A DNA stretch of 7,887 nucleotides, taken from assembly GCA_903875815.1 (NCBI GenBank), contig CAIQXR010000015.1:1-7887 (forward strand), given 5' to 3'. Every line of letters begins with the position of its first letter. The first letter of the stretch is position 1. This DNA comes from an uncultured Actinomycetes bacterium. Lineage in GTDB: Bacteria; Actinomycetota; Actinomycetes; Nanopelagicales; Nanopelagicaceae. Shown in pieces: positions 2,721-7,887 of this stretch. The position numbers and the translations under genes are program-made. A model generated the notes under the pieces. That model was given only the letters and a program-made list of their open reading frames with translations, was not told the origin of the DNA and made no database searches.

Positions 2721-3629
2721 ATGTCTCGGCGGCGGAAAGTTGCGCACTCAGCCTTAGCGCTTGCTGTGAGCCTGGCCGCTCTCACCTTCTTCCTTTACTC
2801 CCCCACCCCCACGCAGGCAGCCACCATCAAGGGGCTAAAAATCCTTCATGTAGCAAGCCCGGAAAAGGACCTGCCCATTCGCGACGTCTATGAATGGATC
2901 CCCGATGTCGGCAATACCGATATCAACACATTGCCAGTTGTCTATCTCTTACATGGTTGGCCGGGCTCACCGCAATCTATGGTCACTGGTTACGTCGCTA
3001 ATTTGCAGAAAGCCTTCACTGCAGGAGTGCGTCCCTTTATTGCCGTCTTTCCCGATGGAAATGCGAAAACTCATATTGATTCAGAGTGGGCAGATTCGGC
3101 CGATGGCAAGGCCATGATTGAAACTTGGCTAACGACTCGAGTTATTCCAGCGGTAGAAGGTGATCATCTGCGCACTCGAGAAATGCGCGCAATATCTGGA
3201 TTCTCCATGGGTGGGTACGGCGCTGGAATTATTGGTTTGCATCATCCTGAACTCTTCTCGCAAATTGCCACGATCTCGGGGTATTTCGTGGTTGACGATC
3301 TCACTGGTGCATTTAGTAGTTCCAAGAAGATTGCCGCACAAACACCCGCCAATTATTTAACGGTGGCAAAAAACTTTCGCTGGTTTATGGCTGAAGGCAA
3401 AGATGACTACACCCATCCAATTCGTGGTCAAGCAGTGAGTTGGGCAGCCCAACTTAAATCCATGAAAGTGCCAAGTACGGTCGTTGTGGCGCCAGGCGGA
3501 CACTCCTATGTATTTGTTGGGAGCATGATTCCAGCGCTTACGAAGTGGTTCATTTGGCCATCAGTCTCAAGTTCAATGGCAACACCAACGCCCGCACCAA
3601 AATCTGATACGGGCGTTGTTTCTAACTAG
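2721..3629 (+). CDS. Predicted secreted alpha/beta-hydrolase (esterase / antigen 85 / FrmB-like)
   Basis: A 302-residue serine hydrolase of the putative esterase family (Pfam PF00756 type), which includes S-formylglutathione hydrolase, enterochelin esterase and mycolyl transferases. The N terminus (MSRRRK, then hydrophobic 9-25) is a Sec-type signal with likely cleavage after TQA (about 33). LLHGWPGS (76-83) supplies the oxyanion-hole loop, and GFSMGG (160-165) is the nucleophile elbow with Ser162. GKDD (226-229) provides the likely acid and GGHSY (259-263) the catalytic His261. The C terminus is a Ser/Thr/Pro-rich tail (about 281-302). The ATG at 2721 was preferred because it starts the signal peptide and lies 6 nt after a -10-like hexamer. 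The frame is open upstream to 2556, but that part overlaps the divergent gene and lacks secretion features. The substrate cannot be told: cell-envelope lipid acyl transfer or extracellular ester hydrolysis are both possible. Confidence 0.88.
   Translation: MSRRRKVAHSALALAVSLAALTFFLYSPTPTQAATIKGLKILHVASPEKDLPIRDVYEWIPDVGNTDINTLPVVYLLHGWPGSPQSMVTGYVANLQKAFTAGVRPFIAVFPDGNAKTHIDSEWADSADGKAMIETWLTTRVIPAVEGDHLRTREMRAISGFSMGGYGAGIIGLHHPELFSQIATISGYFVVDDLTGAFSSSKKIAAQTPANYLTVAKNFRWFMAEGKDDYTHPIRGQAVSWAAQLKSMKVPSTVVVAPGGHSYVFVGSMIPALTKWFIWPSVSSSMATPTPAPKSDTGVVSN
3587..3622 (+). terminator. Predicted intrinsic terminator overlapping the esterase 3' end
   Basis: AACGCCCG (3587-3594) and CGGGCGTT (3610-3617) form a perfect 8-bp GC-rich stem with a 15-nt loop, followed by GTTTCT. 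It lies within the last codons of the esterase gene, just before the stop at 3627-3629. The neighbouring convergent gene ends only 6 bp further on, so there is little other room for a terminator. The T tract is short. Confidence 0.45.
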
Positions 3630-3635
3630 CCGTCA

Positions 3636-4574
3636 TTATTTCTGCGAGCGATACCAGTTCCGCCAGATCAATCGATGCACCGGTATTTTGTAAGGAATTG
3701 CGCGTAAGCCAGGTATCAATGGCAAGAGTGCAAGACCCAGAGTGAGAACACCCATCAATAACATAATGATGGTGTCTGCGTTATCCGATGACTTAAATGG
3801 ATCTATTTGATACCAGAATGAGAACAGCCAGAGCCAGGATTGACCCGGCCATGAACCCGTCTCATTCATCACTCCCCATTGATCACCGCTGAGATGAGCC
3901 TTGGCTGCGAGATCTCCGAAGTAGCCATCGCTATCTGCCAAGAAGAGCAGAGGCTTGGTGAAGTTGGTAGGTAGCGGGGTATCACTCGTTGCGAGAGCAC
4001 CGTCGAGCGCACCAGACTGAGCCATCGCCAAAAGTGATGTTGCAAGTTGCGGTACAGGTCCAAAACTATGGGACGAATCGGCAAGTGTTACCGCCCCTGG
4101 CTTCTTCCCCAACGCATCAGCATAAGTACTCGCCCACTTAGCTTGCTGATCATTCGTTGCACTCTTCCAGATCCCCACTGCCGATATGCCGGCAGGATCA
4201 TTTGAGATCAGGAGCGGTTTAACAACAAAATCTGCTGCCGGATCGATGGGAATTCGCACTCCGGCCCAGTCCTGCAATTTCATAACCCCGAAATGCTGAC
4301 CTTTTGCAGCGTGGTTATATGGCGCGCCATATCCTGCAGAAGTAGTTGTGCCTGCCAATTCCCCAGTCGTCACTGAAACAAAATCGCTGGGATTGGCAAG
4401 CGCCCATGATTTCAGAGTAACTGCTGGTTCATCGGGCGAACTAAAAGCAAAAGCCAAGCCGCAGGCAAGGACTCCCACAACAATAATGGCGATAACGATC
4501 TCTTTGATCAGATCGTACGGACGAGTTGGTCCTTCCCATTTTTTAGCGGGATCTACCATCAATTTTGTTGTCAT
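3636..4574 (-). CDS. Membrane protein in the subunit-IV position of a cytochrome b6-type operon, with large extracytoplasmic insert
   Basis: A 312-residue protein that I recognise only by context. A cytoplasmic N terminus (WEGPTRPYDL at 13-22) leads into one transmembrane helix (about 24-45). A hydrophilic segment follows (about 46-243), predicted to lie outside the membrane. Next come a Trp-rich hydrophobic stretch (SWLWLFSFWYQI, 246-257) and a strong transmembrane helix (about 266-288). The tail is basic (IPGLRAIPYKIPVHR from 288). The membrane plan resembles the subunit IV / C-terminal half of cytochrome b, with the aromatic stretch where PEWY would be, but the PEWY motif itself is absent. 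The insert contains no CxxCH haem site and no Rieske cysteine motif; the only cysteine is in the first helix. The ATG overlaps the stop of the cytochrome b6-like gene (ATGA), indicating translational coupling. I infer that it is the second membrane subunit of a quinol-oxidising complex. Function is unproven. Confidence 0.85.
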   Translation of the reverse strand: MTTKLMVDPAKKWEGPTRPYDLIKEIVIAIIVVGVLACGLAFAFSSPDEPAVTLKSWALANPSDFVSVTTGELAGTTTSAGYGAPYNHAAKGQHFGVMKLQDWAGVRIPIDPAADFVVKPLLISNDPAGISAVGIWKSATNDQQAKWASTYADALGKKPGAVTLADSSHSFGPVPQLATSLLAMAQSGALDGALATSDTPLPTNFTKPLLFLADSDGYFGDLAAKAHLSGDQWGVMNETGSWPGQSWLWLFSFWYQIDPFKSSDNADTIIMLLMGVLTLGLALLPLIPGLRAIPYKIPVHRLIWRNWYRSQK

Positions 4575-5200
4575 TTGAGAGCTCCTCGGCGAATCTGACC
4601 ATCGTTATCAATAGGTGGAACAACGCCTTTGCGCCGCACGAGCAGAATGTGCCAAACCACGATTGCTCCCAACGCAAGTGGCAAAAGTGCAACGTGCACC
4701 AAGATTGCTTGACCTGTGTTTAGCGCGTTGAAATAGGCACCGATGCCCATGGCATTGAAACCATCTTTTGCTTGCGTAGCGATCCATTGCGAATCGAAAT
4801 TTGTTTGAATGATGTAACCCGTAAAGGCGGTGATGATGGAGACTCCAAATGACAGTACGCCGGTAATCCACGTTGCGGTGCGCTTGCCGCGCCAAGCTGC
4901 CATCCAAAACTTTCCCCACAGGTGGGCGACCATAAAGAGAAAGAAGAGTTCAACGCTCCACAGGTGGACTGAATTCACATAATGCCCGATGGAGGAGGTA
5001 TGCCACCAAGATGGGCCTTGCATCGTCAGGATCAGACCAGAAGCAATAAGTGAGACCAGGGCTGCAATTGTCGCCACTCCAAAGATATAGATCCACGATG
5101 CGACGTAAGCGGGTTGAACTTCAGGAAGCAGATCTTCCGGCTTCATCTTCTCCAGTGTTGCCCGACGAACTATTCCGGTCCAGGATTTACTGTCGCTCAT
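4571..5200 (-). CDS. Cytochrome b6-type di-haem membrane subunit (cytochrome b N-terminal domain)
   Basis: A 209-residue protein of the length of cytochrome b6 or the N-terminal half of cytochrome b. Four transmembrane helices are visible at about 33-58, 78-98, 111-131 and 164-188. The second helix holds His79 and His93 (14 apart) and the fourth holds His169 and His184 (15 apart), the expected ligand pairs for two b haems. The wider spacing in the last helix is typical of the b6 / Firmicutes type rather than the mitochondrial type. HLWSVELFFLFMVAHLWG (79-96) is a typical helix B, and VVPP (193-196) follows the last helix. The protein should take part in quinol oxidation and transmembrane electron transfer. 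It overlaps by ATGA with the small gene upstream and with the 312-residue gene downstream. No Rieske or cytochrome c gene is adjacent, unlike the qcrCAB cluster of most Actinobacteria. The symbol qcrB is not assigned because the protein lacks the C-terminal domain and the usual context. Confidence 0.9.
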   Translation of the reverse strand: MSDSKSWTGIVRRATLEKMKPEDLLPEVQPAYVASWIYIFGVATIAALVSLIASGLILTMQGPSWWHTSSIGHYVNSVHLWSVELFFLFMVAHLWGKFWMAAWRGKRTATWITGVLSFGVSIITAFTGYIIQTNFDSQWIATQAKDGFNAMGIGAYFNALNTGQAILVHVALLPLALGAIVVWHILLVRRKGVVPPIDNDGQIRRGALK

Positions 5201-5373
5201 TTTTTGCCCTTCTTCTTTGCTGCATCGCCGCTATGTGGAAAGGGCAAGAGCAGCGCGAGCATAAAGAGAATTGCCAGCGCGCCGATCATGGCGGCATTGC
5301 CGACCGAAATAGAGAATGGTCCAAGACCAAAATAGTGGGCTGGGTGGTTGAGATTGATCAACGAACGAAGCAT
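5197..5373 (-). CDS. 58-aa single-span membrane protein, first gene of the cytochrome b6-type operon
   Basis: A short gene starting at the ATG at 5373, preceded by a perfect AGGAGG 5 nt upstream, and ending in a TGA that overlaps the ATG of the cytochrome b6-like gene (ATGA). The protein begins MLRSLINLNHPAHYFGLG, has one hydrophobic helix at about residues 21-45 (ISVGNAAMIGALAILFML), and ends in a lysine-rich tail (AAKKKGKK). By the positive-inside rule the C terminus is cytoplasmic and the N terminus, with His10 and His13, faces outside. The strong ribosome binding site, the overlap with a real gene and a sensible membrane topology make it a genuine gene despite its size. By position it may be a small accessory or assembly subunit, comparable in role to the small subunits of b6f complexes, but I see no sequence match to any named one. 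Confidence 0.85.
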   Translation of the reverse strand: MLRSLINLNHPAHYFGLGPFSISVGNAAMIGALAILFMLALLLPFPHSGDAAKKKGKK

Positions 5374-5448: not shown

Positions 5449-5471
5449 TAAAAAGACGAGTGCTGCCACTC
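5449..5471 (-). terminator. Predicted intrinsic terminator downstream of glpD
   Basis: On the minus strand GAGTG-GCAG-CACTC forms a 5-bp stem with a tetraloop, followed by GTCTTTTTA. It starts 33 nt after the glpD stop codon and lies before the cytochrome b6-type operon, so it would separate the two units. The stem is short, so termination may be partial and some glpD transcription could read into the operon. The remaining 130-bp gap (5374-5503) holds only this hairpin, the AGGAGG and presumably the operon promoter. Confidence 0.5.
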
Positions 5472-5503
5472 ATGTAGGAAGTGAGTAGTGAAGGAATAAA
5501 GTC

Positions 5504-7162
5504 TTAAGAATGCACTACCTGAAGCGCAGCTTTTTCCCGTTCCACTTTGGCGTGATAGCTCTCGATGGATTTCTTCTTCGCCGCAGCGCTCCAACCCAGA
5601 TAAGGCGCCATCAACTTGGCAATTTCATCGACCAGCGAAAGTCCGAAATCAGCTGTCTCGATCGCGATCCGAGTGCGGCGAGCAAGAATGTCATCAACAT
5701 TTCGTGCGCCCTCGTGCGTAATTGCATAAGCAACTTCAGCACGCAAATAGGGAAGATCTTTGGCGATCGGCTTGGCCAGCGTCTTGTCAGTTTCAATGAG
5801 CTCAGCGATATCAGCAATTTTGCTGCCATATCGGTCGAGTAAATGCATTACTTGCTCTTGGGTGAGTTTCATTTCACCAGCAATAAGTGCAGCGCGATTA
5901 ACCATCGCTTTATAGCCATCTGCGCCAAGTAGTGGAATTTCTTTTGTTGGAGACTCTGGTACTGCTCGGCGAATATCATCGGAGGCAGCATCTACAGCAT
6001 CTTCCGCCATGACTCGATAAGTTGTGTATTTACCGCCAGCAATACTGACGAAGCCTTGCAACGGGTGATCGACGATATGTTCACGCGAAAGTTTTGTTGT
6101 CGGCGAATTGCTCTTGCGAGTAACCAAGGGACGTAAGCCAGCATAAACACCCAAGATATCTTTCTCAGAAATTTTTGGCGTCAAAACTTTATTGGCTTGA
6201 TCCAAAATGTATTGGACATCATCGTGATCGGCTAGTGGTTCGCGTGGATCACCGGTGTATTTAGTGTCGGTGGTTCCCACTAACCATTTATCTGCCCACG
6301 GAATGATGAAGAGGACCGAGACTGCAGTCTTGAGAATGACGCCGGATTTCGAGTTGATCGCTGACTTGGGTAGGGCAATATGAACGCCCTTGCTCATCGT
6401 GACGTGATATCCAGGGGTAATACCAAGTGCTTCGTGAATCGGATCGGTCCATACGCCGCCAGCCAAAATTGTCACGGTCGCAGCGACGTTAATTTTCTTC
6501 TTACTCTCATTATCGACAACAACTGCACCAATGACTCGACGTCCCTTTTTTGTTGCTTCTACATAGGAAACGCCGGTCGCAATTACCGCGCCGTGATGCG
6601 CCGCCGTGCGAGCAATCGTCATTGTGTGCCGCGCATCATCCACTTGAGCGTCAAAATATTGAATTCCACCGGTAATGAGATCGAGGCGAAGTGATGGCGC
6701 AATTTCATGAAGAGTCTTCTGACTCATATGTTTGTGATTAGGCAGCGCGCGCTTGAAACCGCGGAGTGCGTCATAGAGCGCAAGGCCAGCTCCGACATAG
6801 GTGCGCTCGCGCACTTTCTCTGTGAGTGGATAGATAAAAGGAACAGGCTTTACTAAGTGTGGTGACTGAGTTGTCACCATGAGTTCGCGCTCTTGAAGAG
6901 CCTCGCGAACTAATTTGAAGTCGTATTGCTCCAGATATCGAAGGCCACCGTGAATAAGCTTGCTCGAGCGAGAAGAGGTTCCAGAAGCGAGATCTTCGGC
7001 CTCCACTAATGCCACTTTGAGGCCGCGGCTGGCAGCATCAAGTGCGATACCCGTGCCAGTTACTCCCCCGCCCACAACCAAAATATCGAACTCTTCGCTA
7101 CCCAGCGCCTTCACGGCTGCTTGGCGTTGTGCAGGGTTCAAGGCTGACTTATCGACGGGCAT
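5504..7162 (-). CDS. glpD: Glycerol-3-phosphate dehydrogenase (FAD-dependent, quinone-linked)
   Basis: A 552-residue flavoprotein that oxidises sn-glycerol 3-phosphate to dihydroxyacetone phosphate at the inner face of the membrane and passes electrons to the quinone pool. The FAD-binding motif VVGGGVTGTGIALDAASRG spans residues 29-47, followed by LVEAEDLASGTSSRSSKLIHG (about 52-72), the family signature around the flavin. WLVGTTDT (293-300) and YAGLRPL (340-346) are further motifs of the DAO fold. The C-terminal alpha-helical domain (about 400-552) is present, so the protein is full length. The ATG at 7162 was chosen because it lies 6 nt after TATCCT, gives a normal N terminus and leaves room for glpK. 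The frame is open to 7315, but that extension would run antisense through the first 45 codons of glpK. glpK is divergent, 18 bp away. Product and substrate fit the neighbouring kinase. Confidence 0.96.
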   Translation of the reverse strand: MPVDKSALNPAQRQAAVKALGSEEFDILVVGGGVTGTGIALDAASRGLKVALVEAEDLASGTSSRSSKLIHGGLRYLEQYDFKLVREALQERELMVTTQSPHLVKPVPFIYPLTEKVRERTYVGAGLALYDALRGFKRALPNHKHMSQKTLHEIAPSLRLDLITGGIQYFDAQVDDARHTMTIARTAAHHGAVIATGVSYVEATKKGRRVIGAVVVDNESKKKINVAATVTILAGGVWTDPIHEALGITPGYHVTMSKGVHIALPKSAINSKSGVILKTAVSVLFIIPWADKWLVGTTDTKYTGDPREPLADHDDVQYILDQANKVLTPKISEKDILGVYAGLRPLVTRKSNSPTTKLSREHIVDHPLQGFVSIAGGKYTTYRVMAEDAVDAASDDIRRAVPESPTKEIPLLGADGYKAMVNRAALIAGEMKLTQEQVMHLLDRYGSKIADIAELIETDKTLAKPIAKDLPYLRAEVAYAITHEGARNVDDILARRTRIAIETADFGLSLVDEIAKLMAPYLGWSAAAKKKSIESYHAKVEREKAALQVVHS

Positions 7163-7174
7163 GCTCTTAGGATA
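7144..7174. promoter_or_regulatory. Overlapping divergent promoter for glpD and glpK (shared -10 bases)
   Basis: On the plus strand TAGGAT (7168-7173) ends 7 nt before the glpK ATG. On the minus strand TATCCT (7174-7169) ends 6 nt before the glpD ATG. Both fit TANNNT and they share five base pairs (7169-7173). A plus-strand -35-like CTGACT (7144-7149, 4 of 6 matches to TTGACA) is 18 bp from the glpK -10 and lies inside glpD codons. No matching -35 is seen for glpD. Both transcripts would be leaderless and could not be initiated at the same moment. Confidence 0.5.
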
Positions 7175-7180
7175 GGGGCT

Positions 7181-7887
7181 ATGAGTTACATCGGCTCGCT
7201 TGATCAGGGTACGACAAGTACGCGTTTTATGATTTTCGACCATGCCGGCCGAATTATTGGCCAGCACCAACTCGAACATCGCCAAATATTGCCCGAACCT
7301 GGTTGGGTCGAACATGATGCGCTAGAAATTTGGCATCGCACTCAAGAAGTTATCACTGGCGCCCTCGCTCAAGCAGGAATCATTGGCTCTGATCTCACCG
7401 CCATCGGTATTACCAATCAGCGCGAGACCGTTGTTGCATGGGATGTCACCACTGGCGCACCGCTCCATAACGCGATCGTCTGGCAAGACACTCGCACCCA
7501 ATCAATTCTTGATCAATTCACTTCTGATGAGAAGAGTTACATCACTCATACCAGTGGCCTCACTATCGCCCCCTATTTCTCTGGCAGCAAGATGCGTTGG
7601 CTGATTGAAAATTCTCCTGCGGTACAGGTAGCCGCCGAAGCAGGGAAGCTTCGCTTGGGAACAGTGGACTCGTGGATTTTGTGGAATCTCTCTGGCGGAA
7701 TTCGCGGCGGTCTTCACGCGACAGATGTGACCAATGCCAGCCGAACTCTGCTCATGGATCTGGAGTCACTCCAATGGGATGATCGCCTGACCGATCTCTT
7801 CCATATTCCGCAGAACGCACTTGCAACAATTAAAAGCTCTTCGGAAATCTATGGTTACACCGACCCGGCCGGTCCACTGGGAAGCAA
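7181..7887 (+). CDS. glpK: Glycerol kinase, N-terminal part (runs off right edge)
   Basis: The first 235 codons, plus two bases, of an FGGY-family kinase that phosphorylates glycerol to sn-glycerol 3-phosphate with ATP in the cytoplasm. The frame is open from the ATG at 7181 to the window end. The N terminus YIGSLDQGTTSTR (3-15) is the phosphate-binding loop. GWVEHD (41-46), ITNQRETVVAWD (77-88, with Arg81 and Glu82 at the glycerol-contacting positions) and PYFSGSKMRWL (131-141, Tyr132) are typical of GlpK. GTVDSWILW (160-168) and TDVTNASRTLL (181-191) also match. These distinguish it from xylulokinase and other sugar kinases of the family. The second half, with the catalytic Asp and the adenine site, is outside the window. 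Its product is the substrate of the divergent glpD. No Shine-Dalgarno is clear: AGGGG lies only 2 nt before the ATG, too close, which fits leaderless translation. Confidence 0.96.
   Translation, partial: MSYIGSLDQGTTSTRFMIFDHAGRIIGQHQLEHRQILPEPGWVEHDALEIWHRTQEVITGALAQAGIIGSDLTAIGITNQRETVVAWDVTTGAPLHNAIVWQDTRTQSILDQFTSDEKSYITHTSGLTIAPYFSGSKMRWLIENSPAVQVAAEAGKLRLGTVDSWILWNLSGGIRGGLHATDVTNASRTLLMDLESLQWDDRLTDLFHIPQNALATIKSSSEIYGYTDPAGPLGS

Follow-up and report, generated by a model that had tools for sequence, protein, structure and literature searches.

Three adjacent genes in the 7,887-nucleotide stretch of actinobacterial DNA that was analysed (hereafter the window) probably encode a cytochrome b complex that is real, widespread, Rieske-less and apparently undescribed. 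The first-pass annotation had raised the idea of an undescribed complex, and a literature search over the titles and abstracts of open-licence papers agreed with it, as no description of the trio was found there. The features discussed below are listed in Table 1.

Table 1. Coordinates of the trio and related features (positions refer to the window unless a locus is named).
Feature	Position	Strand	Basis or remark
58-aa single-span subunit, trio gene 1	5197..5373	-	ORF list
ATGA overlap, stop of 58-aa gene and start of b6	5197..5200	-	ORFs
209-aa b6-type di-haem protein, helices A-D	4571..5200	-	PF13631 and PF00033 matches; profile match to cytochrome b6 chains
H79, predicted haem ligand	4964..4966	-	kept in 75/78 aligned homologues
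H93, predicted haem ligand	4922..4924	-	kept in 76/78 aligned homologues
H169, predicted haem ligand	4694..4696	-	kept in 78/78 aligned homologues
H184, predicted haem ligand	4649..4651	-	kept in 78/78 aligned homologues
ATGA overlap, stop of b6 and start of 312-aa gene	4571..4574	-	ORFs
312-aa protein, subunit-IV-like, two spans, large domain in between	3636..4574	-	profile comparison, hydropathy
First span, residues 18-45, aligned with helix E	4440..4523	-	RPYDLIKE vs FFPDxxxKD/E
Insertion between spans, residues ~50-235	3870..4427	-	predicted p-side location; no conserved cysteine
PGQSWLW, residues 243-249, at the place of the Qo motif PEWY	3828..3848	-	PGQxW in 81/81
Second span, residues 269-287, aligned with helix F	3714..3770	-	profile alignment, hydropathy
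Terminator-like stem 3' of glpD	5456..5473	-	7-bp stem; number of such sites near shuffle mean
Second CuA oxidase operon with cupredoxin-like protein	L198:6294-10445; also L199-L207, L209-L213

Gene Layout and Distribution of the Trio

All three genes lie on the minus strand, and the ORF coordinates bear out the earlier view that they are coupled through two ATGA overlaps. The convergent esterase, which had been taken as one boundary of the set, ends at 3629 and fits that role. The terminator proposed after glpD is present as a stem, but the evidence for it is weak, with three such sites found against 2.1 in shuffles. Likewise, the claim that no oxidase gene is part of the trio is right for the window but not for every relative, as the contig L233 described below illustrates. 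Hydropathy windows predicted one span in the 58-residue protein, four in the 209-residue protein and two in the 312-residue protein, and neither the first nor the last of these matched a Pfam family at E up to 1.

The window also carries tRNA-Leu, the esterase and glpD, together with a long minus-strand frame near the trio that we take to be argS and the start of a plus-strand frame that is presumably glpK. In the relative L001, glpK-like and glpD-like frames precede the trio in the same order as in the window. The listed glpD frame (5504-7315) extends upstream of its likely start; this start, at 7162, would diverge from the glpK-like start at 7181. A 140-residue alanine-rich frame with a signal-like start (2241-2663), matching no family, adjoins the tRNA-Leu gene.

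Relatives of the 312-residue protein numbered at least 5,210 in the protein collection, where 7,999 candidates were scored. A pattern search of species genomes gave 361 stretches, of which 344 encode such relatives; the best 80 of these 344 and the window were used as a set of 81 loci. The titles of the kept loci name Actinomycetota (including Acidimicrobiaceae, Solirubrobacterales and Ferrimicrobium), Chloroflexi and one Dormibacteraeota MAG. When genomes were drawn evenly, with the centre genome included, the 312-residue protein was found in 10 of 296 genomes from the phylum of G001, in 38 of 121 from its family, and in 29 of 201 from the phylum of the Chloroflexi-titled MAG G040. No match was obtained among 72,556 plasmid records.

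The b6 gene was present in 78 of the 81 loci and a match to the small protein in 75; the remaining three and six loci, respectively, end at a contig edge there. The order of the two large genes proved to be conserved among relatives, a check that the first-pass annotation had proposed: across the 77 fetched loci holding both (the window excluded from the count), b6 lies upstream of the 312-residue gene on the same strand in 74, and the two form a single frame in three (L036, L058 and L077). The position of the small protein is less regular, its best match sitting after the 312-residue gene in L042 and falling inside the b6 frame in L057 and L061. A conserved neighbour that would name a partner was sought in the 81 loci, and none was general. 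In L055, a Na+/H+ antiporter gene (PF06965; 8976-10007) lies 3' of the trio, and its homologues are found on the trio strand in 10 of the 81 loci.

The 209-Residue Protein Is of the Cytochrome b6 Type

The 209-residue protein matched the Pfam families Cytochrom_B_N_2 (PF13631; 1.1e-11) and Cytochrome_B (PF00033; 1.2e-6). A profile of the family matched cytochrome b6 chains among solved structures (best 1.5e-15), and with the single sequence the best NCBIfam and PDB matches were also b6 proteins, weakly scored. Its four predicted haem ligands are spaced H-x13-H (H79/H93) and H-x14-H (H169/H184) and are each kept in at least 75 of the 78 aligned homologues, some of which end at contig edges. By these sequence features the protein shows the four-helix, four-histidine cytochrome b feature of bc complexes. 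Moreover, the packing glycines G41, G55, G114 and G128 are kept among homologues, and R189 and G192, after the last histidine, are kept in 77 and 78 of 78. The cysteine for haem cn of b6f sits near the start of helix A, and the b6 protein of the window contains no cysteine. In a quick tree, the trio b6 rows (n = 38) formed one side of a branch against 40 canonical sequences with support 99, the program warning of long branches meeting.

The 312-Residue Protein Is a Probable Subunit IV with an Insertion

The 312-residue protein probably represents the half of cytochrome b known as subunit IV, its ef loop enlarged by about 190 residues. The databases that name it label it hypothetical. Among 41 members of its family, no cytochrome family and no clearly linked Pfam family was matched, PF00032 (subunit IV) matching none of them at E up to 0.1, and its profile matched no solved structure at E up to 10. 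The resemblance emerged from profile comparison by hhalign with the insert columns omitted. Against petD together with the C-halves of QcrB, the probability was 90% and the score 43.4, while 60 block shuffles reached at most 27.7. Against petD alone, the score of 27.5 was barely above the shuffles (at most 26.3), and against a wider set of 21 rows, for which usable sequence came from only 10 of 30 newly fetched loci, the values were 65% and 34.7 (shuffles at most 28.7). When the insertion was retained, the probabilities fell to 8%, 67% and 13% for the three template sets; the C-terminal part alone gave 3% against the widest set, and the insertion alone gave no match.

RPYDLIKE in the first span resembles the FFPDxxxKD/E found ahead of helix E in canonical subunit IV, and PGQxWLW comes before the second span just as PEWY comes before helix F. 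The Qo motif itself is changed throughout the family, with PGQxW in all 81 of the 312-residue proteins and P[DE][WF][YF] in 0 of 81. The glutamate of PEWY is treated as a hypothetical proton acceptor in passages of PMC9162462, where its replacement partly compromises turnover. The subunit-IV reading is strengthened because the gene order and the single b6::312 frames add to sequence evidence that is moderate. The earlier picture of a membrane protein with a large external domain is modified: the protein is not simply new, being most likely the subunit-IV half carrying an insertion.

No Rieske Homologue or Shared Cytochrome c Gene Was Found near the Trio

No Rieske homologue was found within 5 kb of the trio in any of the 81 loci, using 19 Rieske queries (drawn from loci of the QcrB and Rieske-b6-IV kinds and from one further locus) at E 1e-3, with flanks of at least 3 kb on both sides in 43 of the loci. 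As a control, 26 of 28 Rieske-bearing loci were recovered by a query from a different locus. A narrow Rieske motif recovered 8/8 Rieske-b6-IV loci, 0/10 QcrB loci and 0/10 other Rieske loci, and the homology search was used instead; a loose motif gave two chance-like matches, short frames in L002 and L026. The c-type cytochrome motif CxxCH occurred in 17 scattered places near the 81 loci with no common gene apparent, and was found in none of the 81 312-residue proteins and none of the 78 b6 proteins. Of the genes that the first-pass annotation had declared missing from the set, no Rieske homologue was seen near the trio in its relatives either, and no cytochrome c gene is conserved there. Because the insertion would lie at the Rieske dock and PEWY is replaced by PGQxW, the trio appears not to be made for a Rieske partner.

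In passages of PMC8350767, Ferrimicrobium acidiphilum is described as encoding several c-type cytochromes, each with at most two haem sites, which speaks against a wholly cytochrome-c-free chain in this species; the main text of that paper contains neither 'Rieske' nor 'cytochrome b'.

The Trio Coexists with Canonical Complex III

The trio is not a replacement for complex III. Out of the 80 loci, 46 trio genomes were searched, and QcrB was above the cut-off in 34. In eight of the remaining 12, a search with PF00032 and Rieske gave matches for a Rieske, a b6 and a IV-like protein together on a single contig; for two of these eight, G037 and G043, the PF00032 match was below the cut-off, yet a PDWY protein was present. 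A canonical complex was thus found in 42 of 46 trio genomes, upholding the earlier idea of a separate module. The other four, G035 (Ferrimicrobium) and the Chloroflexi MAGs G040, G042 and G045, showed no other cytochrome b above the cut-off. Rieske-domain matches occurred in all 12 genomes below the QcrB cut-off, and in these four the best matches were without the CxHxGC...CPCH form of bc-type proteins. NrfD, used as a test for alternative complex III in genomes without another cytochrome b, was found in G035, G471, G523 and G555, with no match in the three Chloroflexi MAGs.

In the even draws, QcrB passed in 36 of 38 trio genomes of the family and in 75 of 83 others, and PF00032 was matched at E 0.01 in 14 of the 18 Chloroflexi trio genomes common to both searches. 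The trio is kept in small freshwater actinobacterial genomes (1.1-2.1 Mb as listed) beside the ordinary complex and therefore probably earns its place.

A Cupredoxin-Like Gene and a Second CuA Oxidase

COX1 was found at E 1e-20 in 43 of 46 trio genomes, all except the same three Chloroflexi MAGs. In many of them, a second, lower-scoring COX1 of about 630 residues was present besides the aa3 subunit near QcrB. Sixteen regions of this second COX1 (L198-L213, two from genomes without the trio) were fetched, and a gene for a cupredoxin-like protein was seen in 15. The exception, L208, has no adjoining cupredoxin-like gene and its COX1 lies about 3 kb from QcrB; it was left uncounted as a second oxidase. 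In the COX2 of the second oxidase, the CuA ligands are conserved in all 9 rows. A frame of about 200 residues 3' of the second COX1 was considered as COX3 and had no Pfam match.

In 13 of 14 rows, the only hydrophobic stretch of the cupredoxin-like protein is at its N terminus; L213 has this stretch and a second one, and all 14 rows share an invariant His, a C-x3-C and two Met. No fitting Pfam match was obtained with the 14 members and no solved relative was found; an hhalign comparison with COX2 gave a probability of 3.5%, with the alignment covering the CuA loop. A distant relative in L060 matched Cupredoxin_1 at 6.8e-5, below the cut-off. The name is taken from the motifs; copper binding by the protein, and its role, are predicted.

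By COX1 score, the second oxidase was present in 30 of the 46 trio genomes, and the cupredoxin-like gene was seen in the 25 of these where it was looked for (all but G009, G011, G013, G014 and G018). The other 16, judged by this score alone, were not shown to have the oxidase; among them the genes are truncated in G036 and G043 and where COX1 regions were read only in G024, G026, G027 and G044. The family draw of 121 genomes allowed the association to be counted. The cupredoxin-like gene, marking the second oxidase operon in 48 genomes, occurred in 34 of 38 genomes with the trio (missing from G021, G374, G391 and G422) and in 14 of 83 without (Fisher p 1.4e-14, kinship ignored). A quick tree built from QcrB covered 105 of the 121 genomes; on it, the trio and the cupredoxin-like gene each needed 14 changes. 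Ten independent pairs gave 4.4 agreements, 0.1 disagreements and 5.5 ties (sign test, median p 0.125, not significant), and with the traits swapped 4.8, 0.1 and 5.1 (p 0.0625, not significant). Both trio and cupredoxin-like gene are present in G373 and G348, within groups having neither.

In one of these, G373, a single contig of 12.3 kb (L233) carries the trio, a UbiA-family (ctaB-like) gene, a divergent Caa3_CtaG gene and a small ORF, followed by an oxidase operon in the order cupredoxin-like gene, COX2, COX1 and a 218-residue frame. This was the only one of 34 genomes with trio and cupredoxin-like gene on a common contig. After the oxidase genes of L233 there is a CopD-thioredoxin fusion frame (8470-9828). 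The trio is near ctaA, ctaB-like and thioredoxin-like genes in 11 loci: eight with titles Acidimicrobiaceae or Acidimicrobiales (L046, L048, L051, L052, L056, L059, L069 and L080) and L222, L224 and L225, which are not near copies of any of those eight. In L042, a multicopper oxidase with a Tat-signal-like start (5743-7224) ends 82 bases before the b6 frame of the trio. The acceptor, which had been put down as unknown, need not be wholly so, as one family offers a candidate in the cupredoxin-like protein and the second CuA oxidase.

A Model for the Trio and Its Alternatives

We propose that the three genes encode a cytochrome b complex divided as in b6f, in which the b6 protein would supply helices A-D with two b haems, the subunit-IV-like protein would supply helices E and F and no G, and a small one-span subunit would complete the set. 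The ef-loop insertion would occupy the Rieske docking place. This anatomy is very probable. The complex may oxidise menaquinol, with the b haems and the p-side domain relaying the electrons to an acceptor in the periplasm; haem binding, the quinol substrate and the direction of electron flow are all predicted from sequence. In the family of the window, the likeliest acceptor would be the membrane-anchored cupredoxin-like protein encoded ahead of the second CuA haem-copper oxidase, giving a branch from menaquinol through trio and copper protein to the CuA oxidase, beside qcrCAB-aa3. The acceptor part is tentative, and the explanation as a whole, with anatomy, menaquinol oxidation and copper-protein acceptor together, comes near an even chance without quite attaining it.

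The trio might instead serve different p-side acceptors by lineage, such as copper proteins, multicopper oxidases or small soluble carriers, with no single partner. The neighbours of the trio do differ among loci, the L042 multicopper oxidase is one such neighbour, and the 16 genomes not shown to have a second oxidase by COX1 score point the same way, but the domain separating the spans is strongly conserved, which suggests that the partner or substrate is a single, fixed one, and we regard varied acceptors as fairly unlikely. It is unlikely that the trio works in reverse, as a quinone reductase in which electrons from Cu, Fe or some other donor on the p-side would reach menaquinone at the n-side site, at the cost of membrane potential. 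The cross-membrane haem ligands and R189/G192 are kept and the Qo glutamate is lost, as such a reaction would have it; relatives occur in Ferrimicrobium and Aciditerrimonas ferrireducens, Ferrimicrobium acidiphilum respiring Fe(II) or Fe(III) according to the abstract of PMC8350767, and the trio is present in the three Chloroflexi MAGs without a COX1 match. Against reverse flow, the association with an oxidase operon and with genes for making haem A points to quinol respiration.

A bolder form of the proposed menaquinol-oxidising model, which we consider doubtful, is a complex III free of both Rieske protein and cytochrome c, where a copper protein would replace the Rieske protein in a Q cycle feeding a dedicated CuA oxidase. 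The ef-loop domain would guide the cupredoxin-like protein to a rebuilt Qo site; the copper protein would take one menaquinol electron and the other would pass through the b haems to the n-side quinone.

It is very unlikely that the trio represents a canonical bc complex left incomplete, which would borrow the Rieske protein and cytochrome c of qcrCAB: canonical complexes are at hand in 42 of 46 genomes, but PEWY is missing from all 81 proteins, the insertion sits where the Rieske protein would dock, and four trio genomes show no other cytochrome b above the cut-off and best Rieske matches that are not bc-type by motif. An assembly or sensing factor for haem-copper oxidases that carries no electrons, as the ctaA and ctaB-like genes near 11 loci might suggest, is highly improbable, given that all four haem ligands are kept and that three trio genomes have no COX1 match.

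Comparison with Known Systems

Descriptions of quinol-oxidising cytochrome b complexes normally include a Rieske subunit (passages of PMC9162462). A widespread lineage that keeps the haem core, goes without PEWY and carries a large domain at the Rieske dock raises the question of whether a Rieske protein is needed for energy-conserving quinol oxidation.

The SoxM-type archaeal chain comprises the cytochrome b SoxG, the Rieske protein SoxF and the sulfocyanin SoxE. If our model is right, the trio would be like it in placing a copper protein between cytochrome b and oxidase, whereas the SoxM chain has a Rieske protein and none was seen beside the trio. In NCBIfam, the b6 protein came closest to ExtP of the Geobacter ext cluster (NF040969), at 3.5e-13 and 49.8 bits, where the cut-off is 290. 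ExtP differs from the trio in being accompanied by the Rieske protein ExtO and by multihaem cytochromes c, as described in passages of PMC5877670. From b6f, bc1 and the actinobacterial bcc complex, the trio differs in having no Rieske homologue or conserved cytochrome c gene nearby, in PGQxW for PEWY, in the ef insertion, in the lack of helix G and in forming a separate clade. On the other hand, it shares with them the b6-type sequence, the four histidines, the packing glycines, the order of b6 followed by a IV-like gene and, in three trio loci, a single frame.
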